Shown here piece by piece: positions 19,202-27,088 of a stretch of DNA of 64,000 nucleotides; the first letter of the stretch is position 1, and the number at the start of each line of letters is the position of its first letter. The DNA lies in contig JAFUOJ010000021.1 in the NCBI GenBank assembly GCA_017481945.1, positions 1-64,000 of the forward strand. The letters are read 5' to 3'. Position numbers and translations under genes: made by a program. The notes beneath the pieces were generated by a model. That model worked only from the letters and a program-made list of their open reading frames with translations, was not told where the DNA came from and ran no database searches. This DNA is from Parabacteroides sp. (GTDB lineage Bacteria; Bacteroidota; Bacteroidia; Bacteroidales; Tannerellaceae).

Positions 19202-19675
19202 TCAAAAATAAGCAACAACACAATATAAAAAATAGCAACAAAGACCAACTTTCAACACGGTACTAACTAAGAAACCGATAAAAGCTCCCAAGCCAGCTTT
19301 AAAAGCATCTTCCAACTCCTTTCCACTTAACAGTTCACCGACTAAAGCTCCTAAAAATGGACCAAACAAAATACCCCAAGGCACAAAAACAAAAACTCCA
19401 ATAATTGTTCCAATTGCACATCCCCAGTTTCCCCATTTGCTACCACCACTATATTTAGTTCCCAACAAAGGAGTTACATAATCTAATATTTGTATAACAA
19501 CAACTAATAGTCCCCAAACAACTAACTGAGTAATCGAAAATTGATATCGTTCTGTAGCTTGTAGTAATAATAATCCTACATAAGCAATTGGGGGACCAGG
19601 CAATACAGGTAAAAAACATCCGGTAAACCCTAACAATAAACAAATACCGGATAATATATATAATACAATCTCCAT
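19202..19675 (-). CDS. DUF456 family membrane protein
   Basis: A protein of 157 residues from ATG 19675. The longer frame to 19714 would put a hydrophilic stretch before the first helix and overlaps the preceding gene's end region. It has four hydrophobic segments and the DUF456 pattern: LPVLPGPPIAYVGLLLLQ near the start, GGSKWGNWGCAIGTIIG, and glycine-zipper segments GILFGPFLGALVGELLSG. The family is widespread and of unknown function, with a possible membrane-associated or glycine-zipper role. It is the last gene of the seven-gene operon. Confidence 0.8.
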   Translation of the reverse strand: MEIVLYILSGICLLLGFTGCFLPVLPGPPIAYVGLLLLQATERYQFSITQLVVWGLLVVVIQILDYVTPLLGTKYSGGSKWGNWGCAIGTIIGVFVFVPWGILFGPFLGALVGELLSGKELEDAFKAGLGAFIGFLVSTVLKVGLCCYFLYCVVAYF

Positions 19676-19716
19676 ATTTAATTCATTTTTAAAAGTTTTT
19701 GAAAGAACTTTCAAAG

Positions 19717-20370
19717 TTATATATTCTTTTTTACTTCATTATACATCGAACCTATATCTCCCTGCCCCAATACATTTTGAGTCATCTCTTTTGCTTTAGA
19801 AATTGTTGTGAAACCACTATGTGCCTCCTGTATAATATACCCTTCCTCTATCAAATAGTCTTCATAATATTTATTATATCGTCGAGCTATTCCATAGCTT
19901 GACAAAACATGAGCAATAATATTTCCAACAACAGGAATCACAGAGCCTAATGTATCTAAAACAATTATTACAAGAAAAAATTTGAGAGCTAAAGAGAACT
20001 GGCCTTTTACTAAAGGAATAAAAAATCCAAATAAAAATACAGGTATAGAAAACCCTCGTCGAACTGTTTGAACATCTCCTGTTCGAGGATGTACATAGGT
20101 TGCTTTTGAAAATAATATACGTTCTTTTTTTATATAATCCTCCCAAATCTCTGGTTGTACCGAAATAATCTCTATATATTTTTTCAAATTAACCAAAGCA
20201 TAATAAGTTAATATCAAAGAGATAGGAATAAAAAGTATTCCTATCATAAAAGCCCAAAATCCAGTATAGGAATCATACACCATATAGGAACCTATAGCTC
20301 CTCCCAAACAAAGTAAACCCGGAATGAGTTTCATGTTTGCATATTCACTTTTTGTATAATGAGTACTCAT
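19717..20370 (-). CDS. DUF2628-like membrane protein
   Basis: A protein of 217 residues. Hydrophobic helices lie at about 13-32, 34-58, 108-125 and 128-152. Between the two helix pairs is a soluble segment that includes YVHPRTGDVQTVRRGFSIPV. The end of the helical part and its tail (GIARRYNKYYEDYLIEEGY) resemble DUF2628, in which small membrane proteins end with a conserved [RN]-x-Y-x-K-x-L-x-x-x-G-Y. It lies 10 bp after the small membrane peptide gene. Function is unknown. Confidence 0.6.
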   Translation of the reverse strand: MSTHYTKSEYANMKLIPGLLCLGGAIGSYMVYDSYTGFWAFMIGILFIPISLILTYYALVNLKKYIEIISVQPEIWEDYIKKERILFSKATYVHPRTGDVQTVRRGFSIPVFLFGFFIPLVKGQFSLALKFFLVIIVLDTLGSVIPVVGNIIAHVLSSYGIARRYNKYYEDYLIEEGYIIQEAHSGFTTISKAKEMTQNVLGQGDIGSMYNEVKKNI

Positions 20371-20380
20371 CTTTATTTGT

Positions 20381-20536
20381 TTAATTGATAATAATTTTAA
20401 TCATTTGCCAAATCTTCATAGCCCAATCATGAATAACTCCATGAAACAAAGCATAATAAAATAATCCTATTACGAACAAAGTTGAAACAATACCTACAAC
20501 CATTTGCTGTATTATATTCTTCTGTTTCTCTTTCAT
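20381..20536 (-). CDS. Small membrane peptide (51 residues)
   Basis: ATG at 20536, TAA at 20381. The product begins MKEKQKNIIQQ, then a single hydrophobic helix (MVVGIVSTLFVIGLFYYALF, about 12-31), followed by an amphipathic tail ending KIWQMIKIIIN. It fits neatly into the operon: 28 bp after the big lipoprotein gene and 10 bp before the DUF2628-like gene. Short single-helix proteins of this kind often bind larger membrane partners. I recognise no family. Confidence 0.6.
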   Translation of the reverse strand: MKEKQKNIIQQMVVGIVSTLFVIGLFYYALFHGVIHDWAMKIWQMIKIIIN

Positions 20537-20564
20537 TTTTTATTTATTAAGTCTATACAACCCT

Positions 20565-22841
20565 TTATGAGGTCATGTTTACATCATCTATCACATTGAC
20601 CTTTACCAATTTTACTTTCCCTTTTTCACTCTTTAAATCCAAACGAAAACACACAAAATCACTGTATATATAAAGAGGGACAGTCTTTCCCGCCTCTATT
20701 GTATATTTAAATTTTAATTTAATATAAGAGCCAGCAAGGAAACTCTCATAAGGTCGTACCCCTACTTCTTCATCTTGAATTGGATTTATAGAAAACTCAG
20801 GATCAATAAAGGTTAATAAACGAGGTAACTCTATCTTCAAATCGGATCCGGAAGTTTCTTCCCAGACACCTTCCAATGTACTTTTCACCTTATCATCAGA
20901 AGTTAACATACCCGTAATAGCAGACATACCACTTTTCGCCCAAGATTTTAAAGCTAAAGAAGCAGACTCCAAAGTTGTCGCGGAACCATTTATCCGAATA
21001 CTTTCTTCTATTGCTTTTTTTAAAGTCGAAACATCAACAGAAAGATCCGACAAATAATTTTTCCTTGCATTATCTATTACATTACTTCTTGAATACTTAG
21101 CAGCAAAATGTTCAATAACCTTTCGGTCTTTTTCCTTTACTTCATCTACCCAACAAATTTTATCATCAGTCATTACAATAGCACGGACGTGAGTAATATC
21201 ACTAACTTTTTTACCATTATAATCCAACTTCACTGTCGATAAATCAACCTCTTCATGTTTTCCTATTCGATTTTTAGTTATAGGTACTTTTACTACGTCA
21301 TAATCATCTTTATACATATCCGTATAATGAATACAAAGAAATACTCGTACATTTTCCAAATCATGATCAGAACGATTATTCAGAGAAACCTGAATTTCAT
21401 CATCCTTACTTATTACAAGCATTTTACTAGCTGCAGAAATAGAAACATCAATAAAAGATTTTTCCGGTACAATTGGACTAAAACTACTATACAAGAAATC
21501 TTCACAAAACTTCATATCGGAAAGTAAACAGTCATACACACCTTGATTTCCTCTACGATAGAAATGTTTTAATATTTCTTCTTTACTACTATTTAAATCT
21601 CCTTTAGAAGTATAATATTTTGCTTTGTAAAAGTTTGGGCTAAACAAACCAAATCCTTCCATTGTCGATTTATACAAATTCAATAAATACAAACCTTCCA
21701 CACTTTTATTTAAATAGGTTCTACTACGATATGAGTTAAGCAAATCTGTTAATTCTACTGCCTGACGAGGATATTCAATAGCAGACTGATCAAAATAAGA
21801 CAAAGCAGACTGTGCATTCCCCATATTCATTTGTAAAACACCTTGTAACAGTAAAGCTGGAGCCGATTTCTCTGGATACTTAGACAAATAATTATTTAAT
21901 GTAAAAGAAGCCGTTCTAAAATAAGGATTCTTTATATCTACATTCTTCATGGTATCACTTGATAACCTTTCTATATCAAATGGCAATCGGAACTGAATAC
22001 CTTCTTCCTCATTTATTTTTCCCAATTCTATTAAGCATAAGGATTTTAACAACAAACCTTCTCTGTTATTAGGAGATTGATCTAAAACGGCATTGACACC
22101 ATTCAAAGCGTCTTCTGCACGTCCGGAATAAATGTCCAAATAAGCCTTATCTTTATTTAAACATAACTTATCCCACTCTTTCATGTATTTATAATAGACC
22201 GGAGCAAATTCAGAGAGATAATTAACATACTGTTCTTTTACTGTTGTAATCTGTTTTTCCAACTCCTTCTTTAATTTTTGCTCTTCCGCATAGTGGTCAA
22301 AAACAGCATTAGCTGCAACATTCACAGCACTAAGAGATTGTGAAGCTGCTTCCATCCCACCTTCCATTCCTATACCTGCTGAAGCCGAAACAACAGCCAA
22401 TCCAACTCCTGCCATATCAACATTTTCTCGTAAAGTCTGTCCACCAGCAGCAACACTACGAGCAACCATCCACAAAGTAGAGAATTCTTTATGCTCTTTT
22501 TGTAATTGATACATACGTTGCATTACAGGAAAGAATTTTACTTTTGCTCTTAAAACTTCTGGAGCTACTCGACTATAATCCTGTTTTGCCATATACAATA
22601 AGAAATCATCAAACGTTTCAGATTGAGTTTGAGCAATCTCTAATGAATTCAAAATACGTATCGTTTCCTCCAAATCATAATCAACACTCCCTGTTGCCTG
22701 TTCTTTCTCTTCAATTACTTCTGTAATAGCTGTATAAGCAGGTTTCATCTCTTCCGACGGAACATAAGGTTGCTCTTCCTCTATTTGCTGCGAACAAGAG
22801 AACAAAACACCTACCAACAATAACGACAAAATCCTTTTCAT
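20565..22841 (-). CDS. Large TPR-like lipoprotein
   Basis: A protein of 758 residues from ATG 22841, one base after the TM2 gene stop. The start to 22874 would only add residues before an already good signal. Lipobox LLVGVLFSC (Cys16). The N-terminal third is helical, with a glycine/alanine-rich patch (AGVGLAVVSASAGIGMEGGM, about 134-153). The middle has TPR-like pairs (ALNGVNAVLDQSPNNREGLL, and SALSYFDQSAIEYPRQAVEL). The last third is beta-rich with a KISKDDEIQVSLNN-like strand region. I do not recognise a named family. It probably faces the periplasm or the cell surface as an assembly scaffold of this operon. Confidence 0.65.
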   Translation of the reverse strand: MKRILSLLLVGVLFSCSQQIEEEQPYVPSEEMKPAYTAITEVIEEKEQATGSVDYDLEETIRILNSLEIAQTQSETFDDFLLYMAKQDYSRVAPEVLRAKVKFFPVMQRMYQLQKEHKEFSTLWMVARSVAAGGQTLRENVDMAGVGLAVVSASAGIGMEGGMEAASQSLSAVNVAANAVFDHYAEEQKLKKELEKQITTVKEQYVNYLSEFAPVYYKYMKEWDKLCLNKDKAYLDIYSGRAEDALNGVNAVLDQSPNNREGLLLKSLCLIELGKINEEEGIQFRLPFDIERLSSDTMKNVDIKNPYFRTASFTLNNYLSKYPEKSAPALLLQGVLQMNMGNAQSALSYFDQSAIEYPRQAVELTDLLNSYRSRTYLNKSVEGLYLLNLYKSTMEGFGLFSPNFYKAKYYTSKGDLNSSKEEILKHFYRRGNQGVYDCLLSDMKFCEDFLYSSFSPIVPEKSFIDVSISAASKMLVISKDDEIQVSLNNRSDHDLENVRVFLCIHYTDMYKDDYDVVKVPITKNRIGKHEEVDLSTVKLDYNGKKVSDITHVRAIVMTDDKICWVDEVKEKDRKVIEHFAAKYSRSNVIDNARKNYLSDLSVDVSTLKKAIEESIRINGSATTLESASLALKSWAKSGMSAITGMLTSDDKVKSTLEGVWEETSGSDLKIELPRLLTFIDPEFSINPIQDEEVGVRPYESFLAGSYIKLKFKYTIEAGKTVPLYIYSDFVCFRLDLKSEKGKVKLVKVNVIDDVNMTS

Positions 22842-22842
22842 A

Positions 22843-23049
22843 TCAATGTTTATTATATTTCTGATTAAACTCACTTTCTGTACTTAATAAAAATAGAACT
22901 CCTTCTATACAGGCCACTATTGCCGGAATACAAGTCCAACAGAATAATAGATAAATGATACCTTGAAAAGTTTTTTTTAAGTAAAACTTATGGACACCTA
23001 ACCCACCCACAAAAATAGCCAATAAGGCTGCTGTTGTTTTATTCTTCAT
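22843..23049 (-). CDS. TM2 domain protein
   Basis: A protein of 68 residues: KTTAALLAIFVGGLGVHKFY followed by a second helix and IEGVLFLLSTESEFNQKY, the full TM2 domain pattern. TM2 proteins are two-helix membrane proteins, often encoded beside zinc-ribbon or secretion-related genes; their role is unclear. The gene overlaps the end of the upstream-transcribed LRR gene by 11 bp and is followed by the TPR lipoprotein after 1 bp, so translation is coupled throughout. Confidence 0.85.
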   Translation of the reverse strand: MKNKTTAALLAIFVGGLGVHKFYLKKTFQGIIYLLFCWTCIPAIVACIEGVLFLLSTESEFNQKYNKH

Positions 23050-25201
23050 ATTTGTATATTATTTTATTTATTTGATCATCCCACTCAGATGAATTTAGAA
23101 TATATGATTTATAATTTTCAGGAATAATTAACTGGACATTAGAGTCTTTTATATCAACAGATTCTAATGGTAATTCTAGAAAATGTAACGATATTCTATT
23201 TTCACCATTTACATCATGTACAACTAAATGATCTATTCCTACAGGTAAATAAATCGATTGTAAGTTCTTTATCTGTAATATTTCCGGTTTCAATATAAAT
23301 TTATTTTTTACTGTATCTTCCCAAAATACTTTTGGTTTATTTTCTTTCACATCCTCATCCATACTTTTTTTTACTTCATTTGCAAAAAACTTTGTAATCA
23401 TACCTGTAAGTGGATCCATACAAAAATCTGCGTATAAAGAAACTCCTGAGGCAATCAATCCTATAAGCTCAGAACCTTCTTTTGAATCTTTTTTTCTTTC
23501 TTCTTCTTGAAGAAATTGTTTTCTTGCAGATTCAATTTCTGATTGTGAAATCACATACTTAGCAGCAGATAGATCTAAACATTTCACCATTCTCATTTCC
23601 TCAAGAACACTTTCTAACTGATATACATTAAAAGATCCTTGTACTTTTAATGTATCTGCATAACGAAGAGACTTCCGATTAAAATTATTATTAAGATCAA
23701 TCGTTCTAACAACAGGATTCTTAGTATCAACAATATATAAATCATCAAGCCATTCTTTATAACTCTCTAAAGATCCATCTGGAATATACATTGTAGTATA
23801 TCTTCCAGGGATAATAAATCCTTCTGGTCTTTCATCCGAATCCATAAAAATAGATAAATCCGACATTGATGAAAAATTATTTTCACCAATATCTTTTATA
23901 TTTTCAGGATATCGTATTGTTTTTAGAGGACAGCCATTCCATACATTATTTCCTAATTTTATTAATGAATTCGGTAATTTCACATCAGTAAGTTCTGTAT
24001 TATAAAAAGCTTGATCTTTAATCACTAATAACCGCTTTGGGAACAAAATATCAGATAACGATTTACATGCTTCAAAAGCAGAGATACCTATCTCTGATAC
24101 AGTCTCTGGTATATATAAATCCTGTAATGATGTACAATCCTTAAAACATGATTTTTCTATTCTTTTAATTCCATTTGGAATATCCAAACGCACCAACGAC
24201 TCACAACCTTCAAAAGCAGAAATACTTATCTCTGATACAGTCTCTGGTATATTTAAATTCTGTAACGATGCACAATCTTTAAAACATGATTTTTCTATTC
24301 TTTTAATTCCATTTGGAATATCCAAACGTACCAACGACTCACAACCTTCAAAAGCAGAAATACCTATCTCTGATACAGTCTCTGGTATATTTAAATTTGA
24401 TAATGATATACATCCTTTAAAACAATAATTACCTATTGATTTCACTCCATAAGGAATTTGTATATCTCTCAGACTTCGACATTCTTGAAATACATTATTT
24501 CCAATTCTATCAATACATCCTCTTATTTCAACACTTGACAATAAATTACACTTCCAAAAAGTACTATCTTCTATAGTTGTCACATCCGGATATAAAACTA
24601 TATGTTTTATATTGTTAGAGAACTTCGTTTTTTCACGTGAAATCTTACCTCTTAATATTCCTATATCTGATAAAAATCCAAAATAACTAAGCATATCTTC
24701 AGAATCCAATATAACATGTAATTTCTGAAAATCACTTCTATTTTCTATTTTAATATTAGCATTTGTTACAAAAATAGATTCTAATTTACACGTATAAAAA
24801 TTATTTTCTATTGTTGTTACAGTTTCAGGAAGTACTAACGATTTAAGACTTCTAAAATCATTATCAAATATATATGAAGACAGAACATTATTTTCTGTTT
24901 TTTTCTTTTCATGTTTATTTTTAAAATAAACTTTTCCCCCTTTAATAATATGACATCTTCTTAAATCTAAATATTCTATCTCATATTTTTTTAAAGTTAA
25001 AATATCAGTTCCATTAATTTCTCCTATAATCGTAAGAGAATCTATCCGATCTATTTTTTCTTTTAACAACACTTTCTTTAATCTACCTGCTTTTTTTACC
25101 TTAACTTCTATTGCTGAAATAGAAAAAACATAATTTAGTAGAAAAATAAGAACTATTACATTCTTAAAAAAAGCATGGAACTTTGTATTTTTATTCTTCA
25201 T
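23039..25201 (-). CDS. BspA-type leucine-rich repeat protein, exported
   Basis: A protein of 720 residues with a Sec signal (NVIVLIFLLNYVFSISA, cleavage near 31). From about 210 to 470 it has BspA/LRR_5 repeats of 23 residues, consensus LxxIxIPxxVxxIgxxaFxxCxS. Two of them form a 46-residue block that is duplicated almost identically (138-bp tandem repeat at 24091-24418). A C-terminal domain without repeats follows. BspA proteins of Bacteroidales bind host matrix or other proteins at the surface. No type IX sorting domain is evident. It lies in the middle of an operon whose other products are membrane proteins. Confidence 0.8.
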   Translation of the reverse strand: MKNKNTKFHAFFKNVIVLIFLLNYVFSISAIEVKVKKAGRLKKVLLKEKIDRIDSLTIIGEINGTDILTLKKYEIEYLDLRRCHIIKGGKVYFKNKHEKKKTENNVLSSYIFDNDFRSLKSLVLPETVTTIENNFYTCKLESIFVTNANIKIENRSDFQKLHVILDSEDMLSYFGFLSDIGILRGKISREKTKFSNNIKHIVLYPDVTTIEDSTFWKCNLLSSVEIRGCIDRIGNNVFQECRSLRDIQIPYGVKSIGNYCFKGCISLSNLNIPETVSEIGISAFEGCESLVRLDIPNGIKRIEKSCFKDCASLQNLNIPETVSEISISAFEGCESLVRLDIPNGIKRIEKSCFKDCTSLQDLYIPETVSEIGISAFEACKSLSDILFPKRLLVIKDQAFYNTELTDVKLPNSLIKLGNNVWNGCPLKTIRYPENIKDIGENNFSSMSDLSIFMDSDERPEGFIIPGRYTTMYIPDGSLESYKEWLDDLYIVDTKNPVVRTIDLNNNFNRKSLRYADTLKVQGSFNVYQLESVLEEMRMVKCLDLSAAKYVISQSEIESARKQFLQEEERKKDSKEGSELIGLIASGVSLYADFCMDPLTGMITKFFANEVKKSMDEDVKENKPKVFWEDTVKNKFILKPEILQIKNLQSIYLPVGIDHLVVHDVNGENRISLHFLELPLESVDIKDSNVQLIIPENYKSYILNSSEWDDQINKIIYKYEE
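24091..24418. repeat. 138-bp tandem repeat in LRR gene
   Basis: The sequence TCTCTGATACAGTCTCTGG begins at 24091, 24229 and 24367, spaced exactly 138 bp, with long near-identical stretches around it (for example AAAACATGATTTTTCTATTC at 24143 and 24281). 138 bp encodes 46 residues, that is two LRR units, so copy-number change keeps frame. Confidence 0.85.
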
Positions 25202-25210
25202 ACCTATATA

Positions 25211-26233
25211 TTATTTTAATAAGTCACTCCATTTAAAACTAGTATATTGCTGAATAAATAATTCTTGCCATTCTTCATTTTTACGAGAATATACTCCGTA
25301 ACAATCAGCAATCACGACTAAATAAGGAATTCCCAAGGTAAATAGGATCAGCCAATAAATCGGAATCCAACTAAAAAGAGTAGACCAAAAGCCATCAGGA
25401 ATATCATAATTTATATATTTATATATCACATAAAGTAATATTGGAACTGCAAACAAGGAATTCTTAATTAAGTAAGATTTCTTTTCTTGTATTTTTTCAT
25501 TTTTGTACTTACGAACCTCTTCATTTATAGCATCTTGAAGTTGTCCCCAATACCATTCCTGCTTTAAAAGAGCTTGCTCTTCTTTTAACTCATCTAATAA
25601 CTTAATGGCATTCGGAACAATTAATGACGTATTTCGTGTAGATTCTTTATTATTTAATAACTCTGCAAACAAGTGATATTCACTATCATTAAACTCATAT
25701 AATGCTTTATTTATATATTTACGAGAAATGTATATATAACCTTTATCCATTTCAATAGCACAATAGGCACAAAAAGCTAATAGAAAATTTAATTCAGATT
25801 TTGGGAGTGGGCTAACCATTTCCTTAGATTCCCATTCAGATAGAAAAGCATCCACTTTTTCTGTGGAAGAACAAATTTCATCACCATTTTCAAAGAAAAA
25901 GTTCCATGCTTGTCTAAACAAAGTAAAATCTTTTATTTCTTGTTCAGTATATCCAGAACCTAACGGAGCTTTCCATACTTCTCCACAACTACAGCTAAAT
26001 TTCAGACTATTTTTAGTAACATTATCAGCAAAAAGATCAATTGCACCTTTTAATCCCAAACTAACAAGACCTCCAACTAATCTTCCTCCTGGAATAAGTT
26101 CTAATGCAGTACCAGCTTTAGCAGCTATCCCTGCAACACTTTTCATTCCTTCTCTTGTATCGTTGCTTACATAAGGTTCACTTACTTCTATACCCTCTAC
26201 CCAATTGCCACATTTCGGACACTGCTGTTTCAT
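25211..26233 (-). CDS. Zinc-ribbon membrane protein
   Basis: A protein of 340 residues from ATG 26233 (a GTG start at 26272 would add 13 residues in a poor context). An N-terminal ribbon QQCPKCGNW (Cys5, Cys8) and a second half SCSCGEVWKAP at about 80-90 make a split zinc ribbon with a small hydrophobic glycine-rich segment between. A helical middle (about 90-250) follows, then two or three C-terminal membrane helices (NSLFAVPILLYVIYKYI, and WIPIYWLILFTLGIPYLVV). It is first in the operon. No family name is recognised. Confidence 0.65.
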   Translation of the reverse strand: MKQQCPKCGNWVEGIEVSEPYVSNDTREGMKSVAGIAAKAGTALELIPGGRLVGGLVSLGLKGAIDLFADNVTKNSLKFSCSCGEVWKAPLGSGYTEQEIKDFTLFRQAWNFFFENGDEICSSTEKVDAFLSEWESKEMVSPLPKSELNFLLAFCAYCAIEMDKGYIYISRKYINKALYEFNDSEYHLFAELLNNKESTRNTSLIVPNAIKLLDELKEEQALLKQEWYWGQLQDAINEEVRKYKNEKIQEKKSYLIKNSLFAVPILLYVIYKYINYDIPDGFWSTLFSWIPIYWLILFTLGIPYLVVIADCYGVYSRKNEEWQELFIQQYTSFKWSDLLK

Positions 26234-26289
26234 AATATTATTTTCGCCATCCCTGTTTCCCCCGTTCGGCACCCTCTTTAAAAATTACA

Positions 26290-26567
26290 CAAAAAAAGCG
26301 TGGAAACTGTTTTATATCTTATCTGTTCAAGAGGTATCGCCAAACACCCACCATACAAATAATAAAACAACAGTCCCACGCTAATTTGATATAATAATCC
26401 CTATAGGGTACTATATACCAACAAGCGTGAGCGTTTTTCTGTTGCTATTAAACTTGTATGGCTTTGAAAACTGGCGATTTTCTTGAACAAGTATAATATC
26501 TTTTAAAAACGCTCTTCTTTATCTTATGTCCTTCTGTTCAAAACCTCTCTTGATTCCTAATTAGAAT
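26290..26567 (-). ncRNA. Candidate structured non-coding RNA of about 280 nt
   Basis: The gap between the HU-like gene terminator and the zinc-ribbon gene has its own -7 box (26573-26580) and ends in a strong hairpin plus T7 on the minus strand. No open frame of note lies inside. Pairings visible on the RNA: 26505-26514 with 26429-26438 (10 bp, GAGCGTTTTT); 26482-26489 with 26324-26331 (8 bp); 26472-26478 with 26336-26342 (7 bp); 26369-26382 with 26297-26311 (14 bp with a bulge, terminator). The first crosses the second and third, so a pseudoknot or a switch between folds is implied. I do not recognise it as tmRNA, RNase P, SRP RNA or a known riboswitch; 6S RNA cannot be excluded. Confidence 0.55.
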
Positions 26568-26572
26568 TGTTG

Positions 26573-26580
26573 CAAATGTA
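26573..26580 (-). promoter_or_regulatory. -7 box of candidate structured RNA
   Basis: TACATTTG on the minus strand matches TAnnTTTG. It lies about 35 bp after the T-run of the HU-like gene terminator, so it starts a new transcript near 26567. The -33 region is T-rich but has no TTTG at standard spacing. Confidence 0.5.
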
Positions 26581-26613
26581 ATAAAAAAACTCTATTTCTA
26601 TTAAAAATGCAAC

Positions 26614-26637
26614 AAAAAAGGGTAGCCGCAGCTACCC
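26614..26637 (-). terminator. Terminator of HU-like gene
   Basis: GGGTAGC/GCTACCC stem (26620-26626 with 26631-26637), 4-nt loop, followed by six T on the minus strand, 8 bp after the stop codon. Confidence 0.9.
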
Positions 26638-26644
26638 TCATTTT

Positions 26645-27088
26645 CTAAAGTTCTTCCGGTTTTTCTTCGGAAGAACTTTCCTCACTGGATTTCACCTCTT
26701 CTTCAGGCGTACAATCAACCAATGTTAAATTGTTCATCATATCCCGAAGATCCTCGCAGGGAACAAAACGGAGCTTCATTCTGTAGATCGAATCAGCGTT
26801 GGCTTTCTCCTTTTCTGTAGAACTCTTTGCGTTGAAAGACGGGATGAAACTTCCCAACCCTTCCACATTCACCGTATGACCCTGTTGGATAAACGTCTTC
26901 ATCGCTTTTACCAACGTTTCTACCATGAACAGCGTTTCACCTCTTCCCTTCCCGGAAATCAATGCGACTTGCTCGCACAAATCTGTTGATGAAACCGGTA
27001 ACGCTCTATTAGGCGTTACAACATACTTTTCGGTCTTTGATTCATCAAAACCGAAGGTCTTTAAGACCCGCTTAAAACCTATTGCCAT
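26645..27088 (-). CDS. HU-like DNA-binding protein (HU-HIG type)
   Basis: A protein of 147 residues. After a short N-terminal extension, the middle follows the HU/IHF fold: helices around STDLCEQVALISGKGRGETLFMVETLVKAM, then GHTVNVEGLGSFIPSFNAKS, which corresponds to the G-x-G-x-F strand turn. The DNA-gripping arm is followed by RFVPCEDLRDMMN. The tail is acidic and serine-rich (SSEESSSEEKPEEL), unlike canonical HU. These variant HU proteins are numerous in Bacteroidales and their targets are mostly unknown. It has a leader of about 420 nt containing palindrome array B. Confidence 0.85.
   Translation of the reverse strand: MAIGFKRVLKTFGFDESKTEKYVVTPNRALPVSSTDLCEQVALISGKGRGETLFMVETLVKAMKTFIQQGHTVNVEGLGSFIPSFNAKSSTEKEKANADSIYRMKLRFVPCEDLRDMMNNLTLVDCTPEEEVKSSEESSSEEKPEEL

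Follow-up and report, generated by a model that had tools for sequence, protein, structure and literature searches.

The window, the whole stretch of 64,000 nucleotides of Parabacteroides DNA that was analysed, harbours on its minus strand, from 26565 to 26291, a promoter-led and terminator-ended leader RNA upstream of an operon of seven ORFs. The leader is preceded by a −7 box, TACATTTG (26573..26580, minus strand), which reads as TAnnTTTG, a sequence that we take to be the −7 promoter motif of Bacteroidetes. Folding and matches to two models, R1 and R2, delimit the RNA itself (26291..26565, minus strand), which is predicted to run from a start at about 26565 to the end of a U-tract; both models match positions 26291-26523. 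The 3′ end consists of CCACGC followed by seven T residues, the T-run occupying 26297-26291, and no ORF of at least 60 aa overlaps 26290-26567. An earlier note had described here a gene-free segment framed by a promoter box and a terminator. That frame is present on the minus strand and the elements named do exist, but the range given, 26290..26567, left out the promoter and the strand went unnamed. On the upstream side, an HU-type gene (26645-27088) is furnished with its own terminator-like hairpin (26618-26639).

The first ORF of the operon (25211..26233, minus strand; 340–353 aa) belongs to no Pfam family and displays, by eye, a zinc-ribbon-like N terminus. Its ATG starts at 26233, 57 nt past the terminator as the earlier note had it, and the count of seven genes is likewise borne out, with ORFs of 353, 720, 68, 769, 51, 217 and 170 aa. 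The remaining six, taken from the ORF list and searched with Pfam, extend over 19202..25201 on the minus strand. They include a BspA-type LRR protein (ORF 2, 720 aa), a TM2 protein (ORF 3, 68 aa), a protein with a sub-threshold TPR match and, by eye, a lipoprotein-like start (ORF 4, 769 aa), two ORFs of 51 and 217 aa without a Pfam family, and a DUF456 protein (ORF 7, 170 aa). Between terminator and operon lies a segment, GCCGAACGGGGGAAACAGGGAUGGC (26246..26270, minus strand), which on reading is alike in several Parabacteroides copies of the leader.

The leader is organized around four strands, termed a (AAAGCG..), b (..ACGCUCACGC), c (GCGUGGGCUGUUG..) and d (..CAACAGUUCCCACGC-UUUU), all features being on the minus strand. 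Strand a (26509..26519), which contains GAAGAGCG (26517-26510), is predicted from the minimum free energy fold and pair counts to pair either with b, forming hairpin 1, or with d, closing a rod. It is followed by the 5′ strand of helix H2 (26481..26490), assigned to its partner 26323-26332 by covariation, partner swaps and folding, and by the hairpin K1, GAAA[AUCGCCA]GUUUUC (26466..26482), whose loop is complementary to that of K2. The 5′ strand of helix H4 comes in two parts: an outer one (26452..26462; partner 26350-26360), supported by covariation, partner swaps and folding, and an inner one (26439..26446; partner 26366-26373), supported by folding. Strand b (AAAAACGCUCACGCU, 26424..26438) has a or c as its partner, as judged from pair counts and the fold. 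A folded central stem-loop of variable length (26386..26421), missing or far shorter in short relatives, separates it from strand c (AGCGUGGGACUGUUG, 26368..26382), for which pair counts indicate b as the partner in the rod and d in the terminator. The hairpin K2, GGU[GUUUGGCGAU]ACC (26333..26348), has a covarying stem and a loop that is the partner of K1; adjacent to it is the 3′ strand of H2 (26323..26332), placed by covariation and folding. Strand d with the U-tract (26291..26310), recognized by reading and pair counts, constitutes the 3′ strand of the terminator, CAGUUUCCACGC followed by UUUUUUU.

The pairings listed in the earlier note are all found, namely a 10-bp stem (26514-26505/26438-26429), a composite pairing (26489-26472/26342-26324) and the terminator stem, and they are incompatible as it maintained: the composite crosses the terminator stem and is itself crossed by the 10-bp stem. 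Folding of 26610-26273 on the minus strand against shuffled sequences gives a z of −7.17 (0/100 as good), and folding of 26290-26567 on the plus strand a z of −4.51 (0/200 as good). Support beyond chance for the leader RNA comes from homologues with compensatory changes.

Distribution of related leaders

The RNA in the window appears, from sequence comparison, to belong to a large multi-copy family of leaders of about 170–280 nt spread across Bacteroidia. A DNA similarity search matched 32/59 genomes, one of which is that of the window. The model R1, built on 25 copies with in effect one main loop sequence, matches 35/38 genomes of the genus and 101/295 genomes of the order (71/183 genera); with strict filters it matches 14/395 genomes of the phylum. 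R2, based on 46 copies picked for diversity, detects the family in 36/38 Parabacteroides genomes, all 26 of good quality among them, with as many as 46 matches per genome at E≤1e-5; for both models a few of the matches counted may be echoes on the strand opposite a true copy, and the E-values derive from a short calibration. At class level and with strict filters, R2 matches 52/295 genomes and 30/155 genera.

Named genomes contain a 19-mer core in at least 119 stretches; the carriers, among the matches listed, encompass Parabacteroides, Bacteroides, Phocaeicola, Prevotella, Alistipes and others, reaching as far as Tenacibaculum. Single 19-mer matches labelled Oscillospiraceae and Ignavibacteria may be binning errors or real. 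A 17-mer core is present in 17 viral contigs, and BLAST with the window copy retrieved two plasmid records and, when run against phage records, none. Short motifs recur on either side of the conserved part. In 242 copies, GGGGAC occurs between terminator and ATG in 14 (1.2 in shuffles) and GGGAC in 23 (5.0 in shuffles); GACATA lies on the 5′ side of strand a, close to the model's 5′ edge, in 71 (6.0 in shuffles).

The earlier note had set a match to a known Rfam family, 6S included, against its reading. Rfam 15 yields no match over the whole 64 kb at gathering threshold. At E≤10, the 601 bases from 26100 to 26700 give nine matches, all sub-threshold: the highest score is 20.8 bits against a cut-off of 80, and the lowest E-value, 0.0056, belongs to a 39-base psRNA6 match with 18.4 bits against a cut-off of 60. 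Sixteen further leader loci with their surroundings returned only two tRNAs. An identity with 6S RNA was rejected, since no 6S family appears at gathering threshold or at E≤10, and so was one with Bacteroidales-1 (RF01693), which is absent from the E≤10 matches to the window RNA. The small RNA FopS was dismissed too, as the 35-nt R1′ seed consensus has no match in the window at up to three mismatches.

In the literature covered by the search, passages of PMC11697453, PMC8040213, PMC2864571 and PMC7366714 among it, no description of the leader family was found. Names of Bacteroidetes occur nowhere in PMC11109978 and PMC8632094. PMC2864571 tabulates the Bacteroides-2 and GUCCY-hairpin motifs without an Rfam accession.

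Alternative helices and complementary loops

Compensatory change was examined in an alignment of 25 copies, where 18/32 consensus pairs are altered on both sides, and in a broader one, A6, of 51 copies less than 80% alike, drawn from 73 representatives of which 22 were left out by choice; all counts of covariation, swaps and position are inflated by related sequences and the statistics ignore phylogeny. The terminator helix c:d in A6 exhibits changes on both sides in 8/8 pairs (25 cells versus 4.6 in shuffles), and the central hairpin of the rod, b:c, in 5/6 pairs (14 cells versus 3.4). Both helices use alignment columns 180-182, 184 and 185, and because they occupy the same columns of c they are mutually exclusive. 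These comparisons support the view that one strand, GCGUGGG, may serve either the terminator or an antiterminator rod, the exclusive alternative that is typical of attenuators. The remaining pairings, a:b and a:d, are likely, with less support than c:d and b:c: they pair in 89% and 88% of cells and their covariation scores exceed all 500 shuffles, although 138 and 275 of the shuffles, respectively, had at least as many pairs changed on both sides.

A partner-swap test was carried out on 73 copies less than 80% alike, taken from 116 parseable copies among 191. The strand's own partner beats 95% of swaps in 65/73 copies for H2, 67/73 for H4 and 40/73 for the terminator, and in 19/73 for a:b and 9/73 for a:d, with negative controls at 5 and 2. 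Sequence varies freely in H2 and H4 and pairing is kept. Several class-level copies, on reading, have AAUUUGCG as strand a and CGCAGAUU as strand d, and the pairing is still intact. The pseudoknot or two-state switch that the earlier note had envisaged as a possible control of read-through gains support from two covarying helices that share one strand and from the ORFs that other copies also precede; the covariation whose absence it had named as counter-evidence is present.

Between H2 and H4 each half of the leader bears a small hairpin, K1 with an A-rich/U-rich stem and K2 with a stem of the form GG[U/C]..[A/G]CC. The closing pair of K2 in 130 distinct segments is U-A in 85, C-G in 41, U-G in 4 and C-A in none, a count that admits only segments ending in [AG]CC and whose Fisher test ignores relatedness. 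The two loops share 6–10 contiguous Watson-Crick pairs without wobble in all 46 copies chosen for diversity. Mean loop complementarity amounts to 7.8 for own partners versus 3.8 for swapped ones, and 38/46 copies lie above the 95th percentile of swaps. When class-level relatives are added, 70/73 copies parse with complementary loops, and the three others (L248, L349 and L352) have loops that are complementary by eye and a different K2 stem. The variety of loops is considerable: with length variants counted apart, 27 loop strings in the 46 chosen copies fall into 16 groups by shared 6-mer, and 43 strings in the 70 parsed copies form 24 groups without a shared 6-mer. As many A6 rows were collected with an exact 19-mer, so that their K2 region is fixed, loop variation was judged on the alignment A7 and the class-level rows.

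Because the loop sequence is free and its complementarity is nevertheless kept, a loop-loop contact between K1 and K2 appears to be under selection, and the two hairpins probably form a kissing pair. Swapping of loop flanks did not distinguish own from foreign K1/K2 stems, since the flanks are conserved; this counts against the reading. In one copy (L364, G000:C23:4923-5099) the loop code is in swapped orientation, with K1 = TTTGGCGA and K2 = TTCGCCAAA.

Position and products of the downstream genes

The position of the leaders was surveyed in 217 distinct copies, of which 191 have 600 nt of 3′ flank. A same-strand ATG ORF of at least 50 aa starts within 250 nt downstream in 187/191 copies, and one of at least 100 aa in 169/191, whereas the control, taken on the other side and the other strand, gives 61/175 and 24/175. 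The commonest distance of the ORF is 40–60 nt past the model end. A TAnnTTTG box is found within 150 nt upstream in 165/191 copies, mostly 50–60 nt before the model, against 17/191 in one mononucleotide shuffle. Class-level loci conform to this arrangement, with an ORF of at least 80 aa at 24/27 of those returned versus 8/27 on the control side, and a record from Parabacteroides distasonis has the start of a hypothetical protein 53 nt past the leader match. The order of promoter, leader and gene along one strand is that of an attenuator.

The products of the first genes were scanned with Pfam in 142 proteins, namely the window's and 141 of the 169. They fall into 84 families; among the best 25 of these, the BspA-type LRR family (LRR_5) is at the top with 18/142 and is followed, other LRR models aside, by GLUG (4), polysaccharide export (3) and dockerin (3), and ECF sigma, HSDR_N and LytTR are among those that occur in pairs. 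The genes behind the leaders are mostly diverse surface and accessory genes with no single pathway visible. A defence regulon as such was rejected, as none of the best 25 of 42 PADLOC families matched more than 1/142 proteins.

Individual loci illustrate this diversity. One leader (L298, 1-5633) stands before a dynamin-type GTPase operon (Dynamin_N, 1.1e-18) that also contains, by eye, a second GTPase-like ORF. Another, in the window's genome (L233), precedes three consecutive genes whose products resemble, by eye, a protein kinase, a vWA protein and a PP2C phosphatase. In the genome with 46 matches (G020), leaders are placed on two sets of large secreted-looking proteins with the starts MRTRIFTLLVAFLAI.. 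and MNKKVLTLCAG...

Proposed attenuation, its alternatives and comparable systems

The family is best read, with reasonable though not full confidence, as a cis-acting transcription attenuator present in multiple copies across Bacteroidia, in which loop kissing favours the refolding of two hairpins into a read-through rod. Transcription would start at the TAnnTTTG promoter and hairpin 1, a:b with the K1 loop at its tip, would form first. Once c and d emerge, they would pair as the intrinsic terminator with K2 at its tip, and transcription would stop before the operon. Alternatively, K1 and K2 would kiss, H2 and H4 would zip up on either side and b:c would form; a would then pair with d and part of the U-tract, so that the rod blocks the terminator and the operon is read. 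Termination would be the fast outcome and kissing of K1 with K2 the event that starts the exchange to the rod. Comparison of the copies shows which strands pair, that b:c and c:d exclude each other, that the two loops are complementary and that the leaders stand before genes; the order of folding, a rod that represents the ON state and a regulated choice are what we infer.

Folding of successive prefixes of the window RNA produces hairpin 1 from about 140 nt and the full b:c form once some 220 nt are reached, and the complete RNA folds into the closed rod. The rod is calculated at −83.4 kcal/mol and the terminator at −70.1 kcal/mol, with a terminator probability of 0.0 at equilibrium. When forced, the terminator fold consists of hairpin 1 and c:d with K2 at the tip and is 13 kcal/mol less stable, kissing uncounted. 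The unconstrained fold is rod-like in 39/46 copies. As the energies favour the rod, termination would need kinetic trapping or a factor. The trigger most likely acts on the RNA while it is being made, be it a protein, the pausing or speed of RNA polymerase, or a small molecule. Ribosome-mediated attenuation through a leader peptide is unlikely: an ATG ORF of at least six codons ends in the leader in 199/256 copies versus 235.4 in mononucleotide shuffles, that is, without enrichment.

Natural variation of leader units fits cis control. A tandem array (L297, G003:C158) is made up of four units, each with its own promoter. By eye, units 1 and 3 have altered loops, mismatched between K1 and K2 in unit 3; unit 2 keeps the usual loop pair and the gene-proximal unit is intact. 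In another genome (G014) a second unit has retained K1 and lost K2, and in a further one (G013) the spacing to a second match is the same. Fragments in the window's genome, on contigs C2, C39 and C40, have kept a single hairpin. One derivative of this kind (L358, G000:C2:42750-42839) has a single hairpin with the loop TCTGGAC and a terminator-like end; the 1.1 kb around it contains no ATG ORF of 50 aa, and it could be a candidate free-standing RNA acting in trans or a decayed copy.

A different reading, which we consider unlikely, is that of a metabolite riboswitch, in which the four-way junction of H2, K1, H4 and K2 with its kissing arms would be an aptamer whose ligand sets the choice between terminator and antiterminator. 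Kissing arms are common in aptamers, and terminator-type riboswitch leaders consist of a promoter, a structured leader, an intrinsic terminator and then the gene. The present family has the same order, and its abundance of up to 46 matches per genome could suit a riboswitch too. However, few unpaired bases outside the switching strands look fixed, by eye, in diverse relatives; no ligand or conserved pocket has been identified, the loops vary widely, and the regulated genes (84 Pfam families over 142 proteins) have no visible common pathway.

The chance is small that the terminated RNA is itself the product, a free-standing small RNA of the 6S or sponge type beside which the nearby gene is incidental. 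The leader does possess its own promoter, a terminator stem with a T-run and a strong fold, but the downstream same-strand ATG ORF in 187/191 copies, mostly 40–60 nt past the model, and at 24/27 class-level loci, the intact gene-adjacent unit of the tandem array and the lack of a 6S match at E≤10 all speak against it.

It is similarly improbable that the leaders are portable self-silencing devices, whose terminated RNA would use its K1/K2 loops to pair in trans with nascent transcripts that bear the same loop code, lowering their read-through as pT181 antisense RNA does. Perfect loop complementarity in widely varying sequence would accord with such a device, as would the leader's association with restriction genes and with viral contigs. 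A first signal of loop-code insulation, meaning less sharing of loops within a genome, came with window-like copies found by BLAST, many of which share the loop of the window copy, and is rejected for now. Without those copies (64 copies, 5 genomes) there is no consistent depletion of sharing within genomes, which argues against self-silencing: at 0.70 and 0.75 identity the loop is shared in 3/104 and 20/235 cases within and 36/368 and 77/671 between genomes, whereas at 0.80 and 0.85 sharing is higher within (40/226 and 30/109) than between (32/238 and 1/21). We give equally little credence to the broader proposal of a phylum-wide, protein-independent 'self-kissing' attenuator, in which the loop pair would be an RNA address by which terminated leaders recognize nascent leaders of the same code in trans.

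A DNA element, such as a dispersed repeat or a recombination site, would account for the multiple copies and for two copies cut by a junction near TTTGGCGAT, one on a contig with a tyrosine integrase, but it is very improbable in view of the compensatory changes in helices whose strands lie 100–200 nt apart, the orientation of promoter and terminator and the position before ORFs. In those two copies (L301, near 5748; 81-1226; and L016, near 1662) the leader ends abruptly near TTTGGCGAT and unrelated DNA with GTAACAA(A/T)TCAGTAACAAAA follows. As the L301 contig carries the integrase (Phage_integrase, 3.4e-23), an integrative element may have made use of the leader RNA or landed in it.

If the preferred reading, a cis-acting attenuator, is true, a single RNA design that Rfam 15 lacks controls numerous accessory operons in each genome, with up to 46 matches, in one of the dominant phyla of the gut; among them are genes for BspA-type surface proteins, capsule export, restriction enzymes and ECF sigma factors. 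The design would provide a model, open to direct test, of what switches such genes on or off. Its kissing-loop pairs would be a natural collection for RNA engineering, and it could serve as a marker in the annotation of such leaders. If the reading of the loops as an address in trans were true, mobile operons would carry a built-in, code-specific brake on their expression.

Several known systems bear comparison. The 3161 candidate structured RNAs of human microbiomes, such as HMP2_4205 (PMC8040213), include Bacteroidetes structures that, like the leader, have a terminator predicted near a gene. Those described in the text consulted span 38–132 bp, with no mention of a two-state or kissing design; pieces of the leader family could be among the candidates. 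FopS and GibS, according to PMC11697453, are paralogous Bacteroides small RNAs of about 65–70 nt that act in trans on susC mRNAs; they have in common with the leader that they form a multi-copy RNA family with Bacteroides promoters. Bacteroidales-1 (RF01693; 179 model positions) is likewise a structured RNA of Bacteroidales. Unlike the leader, it is present as one copy per genome at another place in all four genomes searched.

In pT181 attenuators the terminator and antiterminator are exclusive, kissing of an antisense hairpin with a loop decides between them, and a loop may change if its partner changes. The leader resembles these antisense-RNA transcription attenuators (see PMC3753616) in its exclusive terminator and antiterminator, in the loop-loop kissing that comparison of the copies indicates, and in its covariable loops. 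It differs in that both kissing loops reside in one transcript, present in many genomic copies.
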